This document shows positions 8,679-15,918 of a stretch of DNA of 64,000 bases, piece by piece. Origin of the DNA: an uncultured Nocardioides sp. GTDB lineage: Bacteria > Actinomycetota > Actinomycetes > Propionibacteriales > Nocardioidaceae. Positions within the stretch are counted from its first letter, which is position 1; every line of letters begins with the position of its first letter. The notes beneath the pieces are model-generated. The model had not been told where the DNA came from. It ran no database searches and was given only the letters and a program-made list of their open reading frames with translations. The DNA lies in contig NZ_CANLDB010000001.1 in the NCBI RefSeq assembly GCF_947489365.1, positions 124,001-188,000 of the forward strand, in the 5' to 3' direction. A program made the translations under genes and the position numbers.

Positions 8679-9961
8679 CGACCTCACCCCTCGCGGGGTC
8701 GCCCGGCCCGACCCACGGTCCTGCGGGTGCCGACGACGGACCGATCACGGTCGAGCAGCTCCGCGACCACGTCCTGGGGACCGTCCAGCCGCTGCCCGCC
8801 CACGCCCAGCCCCTCATGGAGGCCCTCGGCCTCCCGGTGGCCGAGGACGTCCACTCCACGATCGCCCTGCCGGGCTTCGACAACTCCGCCATGGACGGGT
8901 ACGCCGTCGTCCACCGCGACGTCGCGACCGCCAGCGCCGAGTACCCCGTCCACCTGCCCGTGATCGGCGAGATCGGCGCCGGGCAGGCCCGCCTGACCGC
9001 GCTCGCCGAGGGCACGGCGGCCAAGATCATGACCGGCGCCCCGATCCCCGCCGGCTCGGACGCGGTCGTGCCCTACGAGTGGACCGACCGCGGTGAGTCG
9101 TCCGTCTGGATCTCCCAGGCCCCCGAGCCCGGTCAGCACGTCCGGGTCCGCGGCGACGACATCGCCGAGGGCGACCTGCTCGTCGAGGCCGGCACGGTCC
9201 TGACCCCGCGCCACCTGGGCCTGCTGGCCGCGGTGGGTCGCGACCGGGTCCGCTGCCGCCAGCGTCCCCGCGTCGTCGTCCTCTCGACCGGCTCGGAGCT
9301 CCGGGACGCCGGCCAGGAGCTCGGCCACGACTCGATCTACGACGGCAACTCCTACCTGCTCGCCGCCGCCGCCCGGGCGGCCGGGGCGATCGCCTACCGG
9401 GTCGGGATCGTCCCCGACGACACCGGCCGCTTCACCGAGGCGCTGGCCGACCAGCTCGTCCGCGCCGACGTGGTCGTCACCTCCGGCGGCGTCAGCATGG
9501 GCGACTTCGACGTCGTGAAGGAGGCGCTCCGCGGCATCGAGACCATGTGGTTCGGGCCCGTCGCGATGCAGCCCGGCAAGCCCCAGGGCTTCGGCACCGT
9601 CGGCGAGGACGCCACCCCGGTCTTCACGCTGCCGGGCAACCCGGTGTCGTCGTACCTGTCCTTCGAGGTCTTCGTGCTCCCCGCGCTGCGCAAGATGATG
9701 GGGATGACGCCCCACGTCCGGCCGTCGGTGCGGGCGCGGGTCACCCACGGCGTGACGTCGCCCCCGGGCCGTCGCCAGTTCCTGCGCGGCTCGTACGACG
9801 AGGACGCCGGCACGGCGTACGTCACGCCGATCGGCGGCTCCGGGTCGCACCTGCTCGGCAACCTCGCGGTCTCCGACGCGCTGATCGTCGTGCCCGAGGA
9901 GACCACCTCGCTCGACGCGGGGGAGACCGTCGAGGTCATCCGCATGGACGTGCCCTTCTGA
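8675..9961 (+). CDS. moeA: MoeA/gephyrin-like molybdopterin molybdenumtransferase, possible Glp
   Basis: MoeA inserts molybdate into adenylylated molybdopterin. The 428-residue protein has the expected domains: GFDNSAMDGYA near 70, MTGAPIPAGSDAVVPYE, the MogA-like fold with STGSELRDAG...YDGNSYLL, TSGGVSMGDFDVVKEAL, MQPGKPQGFG and LPGNPVSS, then a C-terminal beta barrel. The TTG start overlaps the upstream stop (TTGA). In Corynebacterium a MoeA paralogue in this same neighbourhood (5-FCL, UGP, MoeA-like, RimJ, GlpR) is Glp, which binds FtsZ. Here moaC and mogA follow directly, so a cofactor role, a division role or both are possible. Confidence 0.92.
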   Translation: MTTSPLAGSPGPTHGPAGADDGPITVEQLRDHVLGTVQPLPAHAQPLMEALGLPVAEDVHSTIALPGFDNSAMDGYAVVHRDVATASAEYPVHLPVIGEIGAGQARLTALAEGTAAKIMTGAPIPAGSDAVVPYEWTDRGESSVWISQAPEPGQHVRVRGDDIAEGDLLVEAGTVLTPRHLGLLAAVGRDRVRCRQRPRVVVLSTGSELRDAGQELGHDSIYDGNSYLLAAAARAAGAIAYRVGIVPDDTGRFTEALADQLVRADVVVTSGGVSMGDFDVVKEALRGIETMWFGPVAMQPGKPQGFGTVGEDATPVFTLPGNPVSSYLSFEVFVLPALRKMMGMTPHVRPSVRARVTHGVTSPPGRRQFLRGSYDEDAGTAYVTPIGGSGSHLLGNLAVSDALIVVPEETTSLDAGETVEVIRMDVPF

Positions 9962-10443
9962 TGGAGCCACGCCTGACCCACGTGGACGCCGCCGGCGCCG
10001 CCCGGATGGTCGACGTCTCCGACAAGGACGTCACGACGCGCACGGCCACCGCGTCGGGGCGGGTGCTGGTCTCGTCGACGGTCGTCGGGCTGCTCCGGGG
10101 CGAGGGCGTGCCGAAGGGCGACGCGCTCGCGGTCGCCCGCATCGCCGGCATCCAGGGCGCGAAGCTCACGCCCACGCTGATCCCGCTGTGCCACCCGCTG
10201 CCCGTCACCGGGGTGGTGGTGGACCTCGAGGTCGCCGACACCGACGACGGGGGAGCCGTGCTCATCTCGGCGACGGTGCGCACCACCGGGCGCACCGGGG
10301 TCGAGATGGAGGCCATGGCCGCCGTCGCCACCGCCGCGCTGACCGTCGTCGACATGGTCAAGGCCGTCGACAAGGGGGCCGTGATCACCGACGTCCGCGT
10401 CGAGGCGAAGAGCGGCGGACGGTCGGGGGACTGGACCCGATGA
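9961..10443 (+). CDS. moaC: Cyclic pyranopterin monophosphate synthase MoaC
   Basis: MoaC forms cPMP from the MoaA product in molybdopterin synthesis. The 160-residue protein is full length and shows MVDVSDK, IAGIQGAKLTPTLIPLCHPL, the TGVEMEAM motif and DMVKAVDKGA, all typical of the active site. Its ATG shares one base with the MoeA-like stop (TGATG) and its stop overlaps mogA (ATGA), so all three should be translated together. moaA is not in the window. Confidence 0.96.
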   Translation: MEPRLTHVDAAGAARMVDVSDKDVTTRTATASGRVLVSSTVVGLLRGEGVPKGDALAVARIAGIQGAKLTPTLIPLCHPLPVTGVVVDLEVADTDDGGAVLISATVRTTGRTGVEMEAMAAVATAALTVVDMVKAVDKGAVITDVRVEAKSGGRSGDWTR

Positions 10444-10934
10444 ACGCCCCGGGCCCCCACGGGCTGCCCGCCACCGTCGTGGTGGCCTCCAACCGCGCGG
10501 CCGCCGGCGTGTACGACGACACCACCGGTCCGCTGATCGTGGAGGCCCTGGAGGACCTGGGGTTCGCCGTGACCGGACCCGTCGTCCGCCCCGACGGCGA
10601 GCCGGTCGGCGCGGCCATCGCCGAGGCCGCCGCCGGAGGAGCCCGCGTCGTGCTCACCACCGGTGGGACCGGCCTGACCCCGACCGACCGCACCCCCGAG
10701 GTCACCCGCGCCCTGCTGGACGCCGAGGTGCCGGGCATCGCCGAGGCGATCCGCGCCGCCGGCGTCGCGAAGGGCGTGCCGACCGCGGTGCTGTCCCGCG
10801 GGCTCGCCGGCCTCGTCGGGCGCTGCCTGGTCGTCAACCTGCCCGGGTCGCGCGGCGGGGTGAAGGACGCCCTCGAGGTGCTGCGTCCCGTGCTCGTGCA
10901 CGCCGCCGAACAGGTCGTGGGGAGCGATCATTAG
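10440..10934 (+). CDS. mogA: MogA/MoaB family molybdopterin adenylyltransferase
   Basis: Adenylylates molybdopterin before metal insertion by MoeA. The 164-residue protein carries TTGGTGLTPTDRTPE (about residues 77-91), the pterin- and ATP-binding loop, and NLPGSRGGVKDAL near the end, both family hallmarks. The opening VVVASNRAAAGVYDDTTGP is also typical. It overlaps moaC by ATGA, and its TAG stop lies within the start of the GNAT gene. MogA and MoaB cannot be separated safely from sequence. Confidence 0.93.
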   Translation: MNAPGPHGLPATVVVASNRAAAGVYDDTTGPLIVEALEDLGFAVTGPVVRPDGEPVGAAIAEAAAGGARVVLTTGGTGLTPTDRTPEVTRALLDAEVPGIAEAIRAAGVAKGVPTAVLSRGLAGLVGRCLVVNLPGSRGGVKDALEVLRPVLVHAAEQVVGSDH

Positions 10935-11523
10935 CGGCCCCGTCCAGGCCTGGCCGGCCCGCCTCGTCGACGGCGAGCTCGTCCTGCGTCCGCTGTCGTA
11001 CGGCGACGCCAACGCCTGGCGCGAGGTCCGCCTGCGCAACCGGGCGTGGCTGCAGCCGTGGGACGCGACCCTGCCGCCCGGCGTCGAGCCCGGCCCGCGG
11101 ACCTTCCGCGGCCTGGTGTGGCGGATGAAGCGGGTGGCCGCCAACGGCCAGGGCCTGCCGTTCGCGATCGAGGTCGACGGGGTGTTCGCCGGGCAGGTGA
11201 CGGTCAGCAACATCGTCCGCGGGTCCGCGCAGATGGCGAACCTCGGGTACTGGATCGACCAGTCGGTCGCCGGGCGGGGCCTCATGCCCCGGGCGGTCGC
11301 GCTCGCGATCGACCACTGCTTCGCCCATGCCGGCCTCCACCGCGTGGAGATCGCCGTACGACCGGAGAACAGCAACTCCCTGCGTGTGGTCGAGAAGCTC
11401 GGCCTGCAGGAGGTGGGCTTCGCCCAGCGCTTCCTGCACATCGACGGGGCGTGGCGCGACCACCGGGTCTTCGCGATCACGACCGAGGAGTGCGACCGGC
11501 CCGTCCGGTCCCGGCTGCCCTGA
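10930..11523 (+). CDS. RimJ/RimL-like GNAT N-acetyltransferase with probable ATT start
   Basis: A 197-residue acetyltransferase using acetyl-CoA, possibly on protein N-termini as in RimJ/RimL. The ORF track begins only at 11116 (GTG, 135 aa), which would delete the first beta strand. The open frame continues upstream through ARLVDGELVLRPLSYGDANA, the normal GNAT beginning, to an ATT at 10930. No ATG, GTG or TTG is in frame before it, but GGGGAG lies about six bases upstream of the ATT. The acetyl-CoA loop is SVAGRGLMPRAV, with NSNSLRVVEKLGLQEVG after it. It overlaps mogA by five bases. RimJ is a regular neighbour in the glp/glpR locus. Confidence 0.83.
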   Translation: MSGPVQAWPARLVDGELVLRPLSYGDANAWREVRLRNRAWLQPWDATLPPGVEPGPRTFRGLVWRMKRVAANGQGLPFAIEVDGVFAGQVTVSNIVRGSAQMANLGYWIDQSVAGRGLMPRAVALAIDHCFAHAGLHRVEIAVRPENSNSLRVVEKLGLQEVGFAQRFLHIDGAWRDHRVFAITTEECDRPVRSRLP

Positions 11524-11640: not shown

Positions 11641-11787
11641 ATGCTCGCAACCATCCTGTGGATCATCGCCGTCGTGCTCGTCGTGGCGGGGATCCTCGCC
11701 ATCGTGCGCAAGCAGCTCGTGTGGGGCATCGTCCTGATCGTGGTCGGGCTGCTCGTCGGCCCCGGCGGCGTCAGCATCTTCGTCTAG
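11641..11787 (+). CDS. GPGG-motif small membrane protein
   Basis: A 48-residue hydrophobic peptide with two short membrane helices (ATILWIIAVVLVVAGILAIV and VWGIVLIVVGLLV) joined by RKQL, ending in GPGGVSIFV. This GPGG ending defines a family of small actinobacterial membrane proteins of unknown role. The ATG at 11641 is preceded by AAGGAG at seven bases. The longer 78-aa ORF in the track has no ribosome site and a non-membrane N-terminus. A strong hairpin follows. Confidence 0.85.
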   Translation: MLATILWIIAVVLVVAGILAIVRKQLVWGIVLIVVGLLVGPGGVSIFV

Positions 11788-11888: not shown

Positions 11889-12836
11889 GTGGACCTCAGC
11901 GCCGTCATCTTCGTAGCCCTGGCCGTGGCCTGGGCCGTCTACCTCGTCCCGAAGGCGCTGAAGCACCACGACGAGGTGGCGCGCACGCGCTCCGTCGACC
12001 GCTTCTCCGCCACGATGCGCACCCTCGCCCGCCGCGAGCCCGCCGTCGCCACCGGCGCGGCCAGTGCCTCGGCCGGCGGCCGCGTCGTCGTGACCCCCGG
12101 CCGGCCCGCGTCGGTCTCCGAGGTCACCACCAAGCCCCGGGGCGCCCGCGGCACGACCGTCGTCGAGGCGCCCGCGGACCCGCTGGCCGACCTCAGCCCC
12201 GAGCAGCGCCGCGCCCGCCGCGAGTCCGCGCGCGTCGCGGCCCGCCGCCGTCGTCGCGTGCTCGGCACCCTCCTGGTCGCGCTGCTGGCCGCGGTCGTGG
12301 TGGCCGCCGTCGGCGTCACCTCGTGGTGGCTCGTCGCCGCGCCCGGCGCCCTGATCGTCATGTGGCTCGTCGCGTGCCGCGCCATGGTCCGCGGTGAGCA
12401 CCGCGCCCGCGGCCTCGTGGTCCACACCGACGCCGCCGGCGACCCCGTCTCGGTGGAGGAGGTCGACGAGGGCGTGACGCTGCTCGAGGACGTGCCCCCG
12501 TCGTACGACGTGGAGCGGAGCGAGGACGGGTTCGACGAGGTCGGTCCCGCCGCCGAGACCGCCAGCATGGACGCGTCCGAGGTCGACCCCGAGCTCTGGG
12601 AGCCGCGGCCGGTGACCCTCCCGACGTACGTCGGCAAGGAGATCGCCCCCCTGCGCCACGCCAAGATGCTGCACAAGAACGAGAAGGGCGTCTGGACCTC
12701 CGGCCACGACACGTCCGACAGCATCATGGCCCAGGACGCCCGCGCCACCGAGCGCGAGACCAGCCGCACCAGGCCCCGCGAGGAGCCCGCCGCCGAGCGG
12801 ACCACCTACTCCGGTGAGCGGGCCGTCGGCTCCTGA
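11889..12836 (+). CDS. SepX/GlpR-like divisome membrane protein
   Basis: A 315-residue protein starting with a membrane helix (SAVIFVALAVAWAVYLVP) followed by a basic arginine-rich stretch with RFSATMRTLARRE. This is the signature of the actinobacterial SepX/GlpR family: SepX supports FtsZ rings in Streptomyces, and GlpR is the membrane receptor of the gephyrin-like Glp in Corynebacterium. Two further membrane helices lie at about 120-160 (LLVALLAAVVVAAVGV, LVAAPGALIVMWLVAC), and the C-terminal half is acidic and probably disordered. The MoeA-like gene upstream is the expected partner. Assignment rests on N-terminal pattern and gene order. Confidence 0.8.
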   Translation: MDLSAVIFVALAVAWAVYLVPKALKHHDEVARTRSVDRFSATMRTLARREPAVATGAASASAGGRVVVTPGRPASVSEVTTKPRGARGTTVVEAPADPLADLSPEQRRARRESARVAARRRRRVLGTLLVALLAAVVVAAVGVTSWWLVAAPGALIVMWLVACRAMVRGEHRARGLVVHTDAAGDPVSVEEVDEGVTLLEDVPPSYDVERSEDGFDEVGPAAETASMDASEVDPELWEPRPVTLPTYVGKEIAPLRHAKMLHKNEKGVWTSGHDTSDSIMAQDARATERETSRTRPREEPAAERTTYSGERAVGS

Positions 12837-12924: not shown

Positions 12925-12999
<75 letters not shown>

Positions 13000-13002
13000 T
13001 CG

Positions 13003-13038
13003 AGGCCCGTGGTCGGCGGAAACGCCGGGCACGGGCCT
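13003..13038 (+). terminator. Terminator of tRNA-Ala
   Basis: AGGCCCGTG pairs with CACGGGCCT across an 18-base loop that itself contains GGCG/CGCC, and is followed by TTCGTCC. It lies six bases after the tRNA. Confidence 0.7.
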
Positions 13039-13057
13039 TCGTCCGTGCGGACGGTGC

Positions 13058-13090
13058 TCTACCGCGGTCTCACGGATCTACCGCGGTCTC
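13058..13090. repeat. Two 14-bp direct repeats with 19-bp period
   Basis: TCTACCGCGGTCTC occurs at 13058 and again at 13077, each with a central CCGCGG palindrome, in the gap between tRNA-Ala and the minus-strand small gene. The spacing, about two helix turns, suggests a protein-binding site, but no target promoter is evident. Confidence 0.6.
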
Positions 13091-13177
13091 GTGGAGCGAG
13101 AACGGGCGCCAGCGCCGAGCTCAGTGGCGAGAACACCGCGTGACATGACGGCGCGGGGATCAGGCGGAGGCCCGGCG

Positions 13178-13435
13178 TCAGGAGGCGGCGCGGGAGGTGA
13201 GTCGGAGGACGGCGTCGGCGTGCGCGAGGGCGGCGCGGACGTGGAGCTCGAGGGCGTCCTGCTCGGTGCCGTCGACGGCCGCGAGCGCGAGGACGGCGGC
13301 GTCGTCGGCGTGGATGGCCGCGTCGAAGGCGACCGACTGCAGCACGGTGTCGTGGATGCTGGTGGCACCCCGGACGGCGGCGCTGGCGGCGTCGTCGGCC
13401 TGGCGTGCGAGGCGTCGACTGGACGTGCTGATCAT
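13178..13435 (-). CDS. Small alanine-rich helical protein
   Basis: An 85-residue protein, predicted mostly helical and rich in Ala, Asp and Val (TSRRLARQADDAASAAVRG, then DTVLQSVAFDAAIHADDAAV). No metal motif, signal peptide or membrane segment is visible. The ATG at 13435 has a G-rich site (GGGGGGAACCG) just upstream. It lies in the track only as the tail of a 926-aa frame that reads antisense through fbiC. I do not recognise the family. Confidence 0.6.
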   Translation of the reverse strand: MISTSSRRLARQADDAASAAVRGATSIHDTVLQSVAFDAAIHADDAAVLALAAVDGTEQDALELHVRAALAHADAVLRLTSRAAS

Positions 13436-13533
13436 CGGTTCCCCCCGGATCCGTCTGCCCGGACCCCCGTCCGAGCTCCTCCAGGGTACGGCGACCGGGA
13501 CGGGTCCGGAGGGGTTTCGGTCGGATCGGCCGG

Positions 13534-15918
13534 TCAGCCGACGGTGGCCGGGACGTCGCCGTACAGGGTGGTGCGCTGGCGCAGGGGTCGACCCGCCTCG
13601 GCCGCGATCGCGGCGAGGTCGTCGGGGGTGAGGCCCTGGCCGTGGCTGGCGCCGGCGGCGCGGCTGATGTTCTCGTCCATCAGCGTGCCGCCGAGGTCGT
13701 CGACCCCCGCGGCGAGCAGCTGCCGGGTCCCGACCCTGCCGAGCTTCACCCACGAGGCCTGCACGTGGCGGATGTCGTCGGCGTACGCGATGCGGGCGAC
13801 CGCGTGCACCAGGACCGTCTCGCGCCACGTGGGGCCGCGGCGGGCGCCGCGCTTGAGGTAGATCGGCGCCGCCATGTGCACGAACGGCAGGCCCACGAAC
13901 TCCGTGAAGCCGCCGGTCTCGCGCTGCACCGCCCGTGTCCGCAGCAGGTGCCTCACCCAGTGGTGGGGCCGCTCGACGGAGCCGAACATCATCGTCACGT
14001 TCGACCTCAGCCCCACGGAGTGGGCGACGCGGTGGACCTCGAGCCACTCCTCGGTGGTGATCTTGTCGGGGCAGAGCACCGCGCGGACCTCGTCGTCGAG
14101 GATCTCCGCGGCCGTGCCCGGCAGCGAGCGGAGCCCGGCCTCCTTGAGGCGGAGCAGGTAGCTCTCCAGCGGCTCCTCGAGTCGCCGCGAGCCCTCCATC
14201 ACCTCGAGGGCGGTGAACCCGTGGATGTGCATGTCCGGCACCCGCTCGTGGACCGCCTGGGCGACCTCGACGTAGAAGTTGCCGTCGAACTTCGGGTGGA
14301 TGCCGCCCTGCAGGCACACCTCCGTGGCGCCGAGGCCCCAGGCCTCCTCGCTGCGGTCGGCGACCTCCTCCAGCGTCAGCAGGTACGGCGCCCCGCGCAG
14401 GTTGAGCGACAGCGGACCCTTCGAGAACCCGCAGAAGGTGCACTTGAAGGTGCACACGTTGGTGTAGTTGATGTTCCGGTTCACCACGAAGGTGACCTCG
14501 TCGCCGACCACCCGCCGCCGGATCGCGTCGGCCACCTCGGCGACGGCGGCGACCTCGGTCCCGCGCGCCGCGAACAGCGCCTCGAGCTCCTCGGCGCCCG
14601 CCTCCTGGCCCGCCCGGACGCCGTCCAGCACCTCGCCGATCCGGCCGCGGACCACGCCGCCGGTCGACGAGCGACCGGCGCGCAGCGTCGCCGGGTCGGT
14701 GCCGGACCCGGAGAACCACGACGTGGAGCGGCGTCCGACCTGGATCACCTCGGCGCCGGTGCCGACGTTGGCGGCGTCCGCGTGGCGCTCGGGCCACATC
14801 GCGCCCGGGTCGTCGCGGCCCAGCAGGTCGGCGTCGGCGCGGTCGAGCACCGGGAACCGCAGGGCCTCGTCGAGCCAGCGCTCCGGCTCCGCGGCGTACG
14901 TCGGGTAGACGGTCAGGCGCGGGGCGAGCTCGTGGCCGGCGGCCTCGGTGGCGTCGCGCAGGACGTCGAGGGACGGCCAGGGCCGCTCGGGGTTCACGTG
15001 GTCGGCGGTCACGGGGGAGACGCCGCCCCAGTCGTCGATGCCGGCCGCGAGCAGACCGGCGAGGTCCTCGGGCTCCGACAGGTTCGGCGGCGCCTGCACG
15101 TGGACGTCGTCCGGCAGCACGAGCCGGGCCAGGGCGATGGCGCGCAGGTGGTCCTCGGGCGGGCACGGCGGGGCCGCGCGCATCGCCGTCCCGGGCTTGG
15201 GCAGGAAGTTCTGGACGATCACCTCCTGCACGTGGCCGTGGGCGTCGTGGGACTCCGCGATCGCGCGCAGCGCCTCGACCCGGTCGGCCTCGGTCTCGCC
15301 GATGCCGACGAGGATCCCGGTGGTGAAGGGGATGGCCAGCTCGCCGGCGGCGTCCAGGGTGGCCAGGCGGCGGGCGGGCACCTTGTCGGGCGCCCCGCGG
15401 TGCGCGGCCAGGTCGGGTCGGAGGCTCTCGATCATCATCCCCTGCGAGGCGCTGGAGCGGCGCAGGGTCGCGAGGTCGGCTGCGTCGAGCGCGCCGGCGT
15501 TCGCGTGGGGCAGGAGGCCGGTCTCCGCGAGGACCAGGGCGGTGGCCTCGGCGAGGTAGTCGACCGTCGTCGCGTGGCCGCGCGCGGCGAGCCACTCGGC
15601 CGCGGCCGGGTAGCGGAGCTCGGGGGCCTCCCCGAGGGTGAACAGCGCCTCGTGGCAGCCCGCGGCCGCGCCCTGCTCCGCGATCGCGAGGACCTCGCCG
15701 GGCTCCAGGTACGGCGCGTGCGCGGTGCGCGGCGACTCCGCGAAGGTGCAGTAGCCGCAGCGGTCCCGGCACAGCTTGGTCAGGGGGATGAAGACCTTGG
15801 GGGAGTAGGTCACCCGCGTGGAGAACAGGGCGTCGCGCCGGGCGGCGGCCATCGCGAGGAGCTCGTGGGTCGGCAGCGCGGTGAGCGCGGTGACCTCGGT
15901 CTTCGGGAGCGACGTCAT
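13534..15918 (-). CDS. fbiC: FbiC, bifunctional FO synthase (CofG-CofH fusion)
   Basis: Makes 7,8-didemethyl-8-hydroxy-5-deazariboflavin (FO), the chromophore of coenzyme F420, from a pyrimidine intermediate and tyrosine. The 794-residue protein has two radical SAM halves. The CofG half has LCRDRCGYC (about residue 50) and the CofH half has NVCTFKCTFCGFSKG (about 500), each giving a CxxxCxxC iron-sulfur site. The length matches actinobacterial FbiC. GATACT lies six bases before the ATG. Five F420- or flavin-type enzymes elsewhere in the window are potential users of the product. Confidence 0.96.
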   Translation of the reverse strand: MTSLPKTEVTALTALPTHELLAMAAARRDALFSTRVTYSPKVFIPLTKLCRDRCGYCTFAESPRTAHAPYLEPGEVLAIAEQGAAAGCHEALFTLGEAPELRYPAAAEWLAARGHATTVDYLAEATALVLAETGLLPHANAGALDAADLATLRRSSASQGMMIESLRPDLAAHRGAPDKVPARRLATLDAAGELAIPFTTGILVGIGETEADRVEALRAIAESHDAHGHVQEVIVQNFLPKPGTAMRAAPPCPPEDHLRAIALARLVLPDDVHVQAPPNLSEPEDLAGLLAAGIDDWGGVSPVTADHVNPERPWPSLDVLRDATEAAGHELAPRLTVYPTYAAEPERWLDEALRFPVLDRADADLLGRDDPGAMWPERHADAANVGTGAEVIQVGRRSTSWFSGSGTDPATLRAGRSSTGGVVRGRIGEVLDGVRAGQEAGAEELEALFAARGTEVAAVAEVADAIRRRVVGDEVTFVVNRNINYTNVCTFKCTFCGFSKGPLSLNLRGAPYLLTLEEVADRSEEAWGLGATEVCLQGGIHPKFDGNFYVEVAQAVHERVPDMHIHGFTALEVMEGSRRLEEPLESYLLRLKEAGLRSLPGTAAEILDDEVRAVLCPDKITTEEWLEVHRVAHSVGLRSNVTMMFGSVERPHHWVRHLLRTRAVQRETGGFTEFVGLPFVHMAAPIYLKRGARRGPTWRETVLVHAVARIAYADDIRHVQASWVKLGRVGTRQLLAAGVDDLGGTLMDENISRAAGASHGQGLTPDDLAAIAAEAGRPLRQRTTLYGDVPATVG

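Follow-up and report, generated by a model that had tools for sequence, protein, structure and literature searches.

The stretch of Nocardioides DNA analyzed here (the window; 64 kb of a 4.47-Mb genome) carries a GNAT gene directly 3' of mogA, and it raises the question of where translation of that gene begins. The open frame spans 10864 to 11523, its opening part lying inside mogA, and its first ATG, GTG or TTG is the GTG at 11116, which is codon 63 if the ATT at 10930 is counted as codon 1. The preliminary description had noted this lack of an upstream canonical codon and had proposed the ATT as the start. Comparison of 170 mogA-GNAT junctions supports that proposal, and we conclude that the GNAT gene is very probably translated from ATT 10930.

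The operon and the first 62 codons of the GNAT gene

Pfam matches identify moeA, moaC and mogA at 8 to 11.5 kb of the window, and within this one operon the stop and start codons overlap at the moeA-moaC, moaC-mogA and mogA-GNAT junctions (Table 1). The T shared by ATT and the mogA stop codon, and the in-frame ATC ahead of the ATT, had both been missed in the preliminary description; the GGGGAG that it placed about six bases before the ATT is present, at a spacing of 5. The predicted Shine-Dalgarno (SD) pairing is −10.6 kcal/mol at the ATT versus −3.2 kcal/mol at GTG 11116, and the former value is good but not exceptional, ranking 18th among 197 in-frame positions.

Table 1. Features of the moaC-mogA-GNAT region, in window coordinates
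Feature	Position	Strand	Basis or remark
moaC	9961..10443	+	Pfam MoaC, E 7.6e-50; ATG overlaps moeA stop as TGATG (9959-9963)
moaC stop/mogA ATG overlap, ATGA	10440-10443	+	Sequence
mogA/moaB-like gene, 164 codons plus stop TAG	10440..10934	+	PF00994, E 1.3e-25; protein ends GSDH
GGGGAG, SD-like, within mogA Gly-Ser codons, 5 bases ahead of ATT	10919..10924	+	Sequence
In-frame ATC, alternative near-cognate start, 2 bases from SD	10927..10929	+	Sequence
ATT, inferred GNAT start codon; last T common to mogA stop TAG (10932-10934)	10930..10932	+	170-junction comparison
mogA-GNAT overlap ATTAG, −5	10930-10934	+	Sequence
RimJ-like GNAT gene, 197 codons plus stop	10930..11523	+	PF13302, PDB sequence match, Foldseek
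GTG picked by mechanical ORF track, rejected as start	11116..11118	+	Codon 63, inside helix 59-71; weak SD; GTG in 66/170 relatives

The encoded protein contains a GNAT domain (PF13302, E 8e-21, residues 17 to 160). Its closest solved relative by both sequence and fold is RimJ of Mycobacterium smegmatis (PDB 6c30, 6c32 and 6c37), which is 37% identical, aligns with query residues 6 to 195 (E 6.9e-42) and is the best Foldseek match of the confident structural model (E 3.2e-21; mean pLDDT, 90.8). The score against the NCBIfam equivalog for ribosomal protein S5-alanine N-acetyltransferase (NF008072) was 77.5 bits, which does not reach the curated cut-off of 190; therefore, we term the protein RimJ-like only, a name that refers to its sequence and fold.

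The preliminary description had also stated that the frame is protein-like for 62 codons 5' of the GTG and that the normal first strand lies there, and both statements held. Third-position GC is 0.97 both upstream and downstream of GTG 11116, and the model places strands at residues 12 to 14 and 17 to 21 and helices at residues 24 to 36, 38 to 44 and 59 to 71. Codons 8 to 62 are conserved among relatives, and residues W8, P9, R20, D26, W30, R34, W40, W44 and P49 are invariant in 170/170. Since W8-P9 is present in every relative, including those of the ATT and CTG classes described below, translation must begin upstream of this pair everywhere. The sequence ahead of Trp-Pro differs in length among the relatives; a beginning SGPVQAWPARL, which the preliminary description had named for an alignment of homologues, is not general among them, and only the sister genome is close (SGPQQAWPARL). 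On the evidence of conservation and the structural model, the upstream 62 codons are coding.

The remaining case for the GTG at 11116, with untranslated codons upstream of it or a gene in decay, is that it is the first canonical in-frame start and that, between the window and its sister, dN/dS is higher at the N terminus (0.33) than at the C terminus (0.07). The N terminus is less constrained in several other pairs too, and a slight relaxation there is possible for this reason. However, when ATT genomes were compared with near relatives over 55 N-terminal codons, the nonsynonymous-to-synonymous ratio was 0.04 to 0.58, with a P value of <0.05 in six of the seven comparisons; purifying selection is borderline in the window pair, which has a ratio of 0.36 and a P value of 0.057. 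The frame is intact, and the C terminus is strongly conserved. A start at the GTG would fall inside the helix at residues 59 to 71, removing the beginning of that helix together with strand 1, the helices between residues 24 and 44, and the invariant W8, P9, D26, W30, W44 and P49. In addition, the GTG has weak SD pairing and is present at codon 63 in just 66 of the 170 relatives. We regard this alternative as extremely unlikely.

Beyond the GNAT gene, the window encodes a small membrane-like protein of 48 residues (11641-11787; weak DUF5699 match, below the cut-off) and a protein of 315 residues (11889-12836; N terminus MDLSAVIFVALAVAWAVYLVPKAL) that had no match in a Pfam search; a sequence resembling it is present after the GNAT gene of one relative from another genus (L249). 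A tRNA-Ala (CGC) gene lies at 12925-12999. The mechanical ORFs 12931-13143 and 12962-13861 both read through this tRNA gene, and their beginnings are therefore not protein coding.

Start codons and mogA codons at 170 junctions

The junctions were taken from 200 Nocardioides genomes plus named GTDB genomes and from a targeted sample comprising all mogA ends with GSDH plus TAR in 220 genomes of the genus and 346 of the family; after duplicates and other families were dropped, 170 distinct junctions were kept. A canonical start was found in 134, as a TTG in TTGA (62 junctions), an ATG or GTG in RTGA (19), a canonical codon downstream (45) or a GTG inside mogA (8). CTG, in CTGA, was the only candidate in 28 junctions, and ATT, always as ATTAR, was the only one in 8, a count that is biased in that 6 of these genomes came from the unbiased survey and 2 more from the GSDH-plus-TAR search. 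None of the 170 junctions was without a candidate start.

Besides the window, the ATT cases within the genus are N. psychrotolerans (L054), N. pini (L083), zg-1230 (L088), L179, L224 and L243; the eighth, L249, belongs to another genus of the family. The first canonical codon is codon 63 in the window, codon 48 in L224 and codon 32 in L243, and by sequence these are the firmest cases. L054, L083, L088, L179 and L249 prove the use of ATT less strictly, because they have a GTG at codons 6 to 20. The CTG-only genomes, all Nocardioides, include L067, L077, L091, L206 and L216 plus 23 other loci, with the next canonical codon at positions 7 to 60; CTG starts thus form a larger class than ATT at this junction and are probably misannotated too. 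At the L032, L072 and L133 junctions, mogA and the GNAT gene are separated by short tandem copies that resemble the GGGAGCGACCATTGAGC junction, about three of them in L133; this arrangement would fit a duplication of the stop-SD-start unit.

MogA ends in Gly-Ser-Asp-His in all ATT, CTG and GTG-in-mogA junctions, and the alternative codons used there are all synonymous for MogA; however, they vary with the start codon of the following gene. The mogA end is GGG AGC GAY CAT TAR in 8/8 ATT junctions and GGG AGC GAC CAC TGA in 28/28 CTG junctions; CAT TGA is found in all 60 TTG junctions with GSDH. The eight junctions with a GTG inside mogA, which share the register of the ATT, all have GGC AGT GAY CAC, with the start codon formed as aGTGac. 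Gly is encoded by GGG in 91 of 96 GSDH junctions with an overlapping start versus 0 of 8 with the start inside mogA. Every one of the 16 junctions in the ATT register has either ATT (8) or the GTG in mogA (8), and none has both or neither. From codon use inside mogA of the same genomes (CAC in 334 of 378 His codons; AGC in 140 of 152 AGY Ser codons), approximately 81% would be expected to have neither. Codon use gives no reason to expect that ATT would go exclusively with one set of mogA codons and GTG with the other, and chance was rejected as the explanation. These counts are related by descent and are not independent, but the ATT state changes at least 8 times on the tree, and at least 4 changes are needed for the GTG-in-mogA state; the pattern therefore does not depend on one clade. 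Parsimony cannot tell gains of ATT from losses, and L054 is close to L179, as is L083 to L088.

Origin of the ATT and its −5 register

The GNAT protein of the sister genome, Nocardioides sp. CFH 31398 (G189), is 94% identical to that of the window. Its junction reads GGGGAGCGACCATTGAGCGGC, compared with GGGGAGCGATCATTAGCGGC in the window, and in the alignment ccaTTGAGCGGC of the sister, which has TTGA, stands opposite tcaTT-AGCGGC of the window. Very probably, one G was lost from an ancestral CATTGAGC junction in which a TTG start overlapped TGA. By this single loss, the mogA stop TGA would have become TAG and the TTG start of the GNAT gene ATT at once, with the rest of the MogA and GNAT proteins left in frame. 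An NTG start cannot form a −5 overlap, because the stop codon begins with T, whereas a start ending in T can. Competition from an out-of-frame TTG under TGA may explain why the stop is TAG or TAA in all eight ATT cases.

The same single-base difference would be seen if the G had been lost only in the assembly and the real junction were CATTGAGC, with an ordinary TTG overlapping TGA. However, seven other assemblies, one of them from another genus, show ATTAR in the same register, and the same base would need to have been hit each time; such an error is unlikely.

A second possibility is initiation one codon farther 5', at ATC 10927. The infC gene of the window's genome (L250, G000:C9, about 116936) has no ATG, GTG or TTG in frame, and the one likely start is an ATC following GGGAGGACCC, in agreement with what has been reported for Streptomyces. 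The spacing in infC (GGGAG-GACCC-ATC) equals that at the GNAT ATT (GGGAG-CGATC-ATT), 5 bases in each case. The codon before the ATT is an in-frame ATC in the window and L249, where it is created by GAT before CAT; however, it lies only 2 bases from GGGGAG in the window, and the other six of the eight ATT genomes have ACC at this position. Initiation at the ATC is accordingly very unlikely.

In favor of a frameshift at the mogA stop, which would produce a MogA-GNAT fusion protein, no gap separates the two frames, and the GNAT frame extends back into mogA without a stop codon. Against such a fusion, the register of the GNAT gene relative to mogA is −1, +1 or 0, depending on the relative, an RTG overlap or a canonical codon farther downstream is available at 64 of the 170 junctions, and a slippery sequence is not evident; a fusion is extremely unlikely.

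Probable initiation at the fused stop and start

If the ATT is the start codon, as we infer, initiator fMet-tRNA would be used there. Ribosomes ending mogA at the TAG would be held by GGGGAG and the adjacent stop codon and would then restart at the fused ATT; alternatively, new 30S subunits would be caught by GGGGAG at the ATT. In Escherichia coli, reinitiation can use noncanonical codons with matching initiator tRNAs, and it is lowered by excess IF3, although less so with an SD sequence (PMC2268962). Overlapping gene pairs of the NTGA (−4) and TGATG (−1) types are associated with translational coupling (PMC6728339, PMC12548453), and the moeA-moaC and moaC-mogA junctions have those forms. The mogA-GNAT pair likewise lies in one operon with overlapping stop and start; however, ATTAR is a −5 overlap that is closed to NTG starts. 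An AUU start is of a known kind, whereas the stop-fused −5 overlap is a new variant: no ATTAR case was found in open-access papers on AUU starts and gene overlaps, and a search of the same literature for studies of Nocardioides start codons gave nothing on the mogA-GNAT junction.

The GNAT gene resembles infC, which initiates at AUU in E. coli and AUC in Streptomyces (PMC5472188), in its noncanonical start and, in the window's genome, in its SD sequence and spacing. In E. coli, IF3 controls its own synthesis through the odd infC codon (PMC5472188); unlike that of infC, the GNAT ATT is exchangeable among relatives and is fused to the preceding stop. The sigR gene of Streptomyces is another actinobacterial gene with a near-cognate start, a GTC that is missed by gene finders and repressed by IF3 (PMC5472188), but that codon is conserved (32/34 species) and regulatory (PMC5472188), whereas the GNAT ATT is scattered among lineages. 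The AUU of Staphylococcus aureus cvfC1 yields approximately 10% of the AUG output (PMC13009471), and AUU initiation limits translation of E. coli pcnB, according to pcnB work cited in PMC13009471; output from the GNAT ATT may be reduced in the same way. Unlike the GNAT gene, cvfC1 stands first in its operon, and its AUU, which staphylococci share as a conserved codon, has no upstream stop codon fused to it.

The AUU and AUC cases, the lowering of reinitiation by IF3 and the ATC-only infC of this genome make it likely, by analogy, that the GNAT gene is sensitive to IF3. A conserved IF3-dependent control of the infC or sigR type was rejected: relatives use TTG, CTG, GTG or ATG, and ATT is found in 8/170. 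Since relatives change the codon, the ATT is not a conserved regulatory device. It is more likely that the cell needs little of the enzyme and that weak codons are tolerated where stop, SD and start are fused.

Few bacterial AUU starts are known, and a study that followed start codon switches across 36 genome triplets recorded 2 switches to AUU in some 69,000 starts (PMC5622118); here, one gene has ATT in 8 scattered lineages and only CTG in 28 genomes. Starts of this class are overlooked by annotation, leading to truncated proteins, with 62 residues lost in the present case. We consider it reasonably probable that the mogA-GNAT junction amounts to a natural experiment across the Nocardioidaceae, near-cognate codons being tolerated there by stop-linked initiation, with one-base swaps among TTG, CTG and ATT and an ATTAR −5 register that is closed to NTG and invisible to gene finders. 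These natural alleles make the relaxation of start codon choice by termination-reinitiation directly testable, and the ATTAR register may also be used by other genes of high-GC bacteria.
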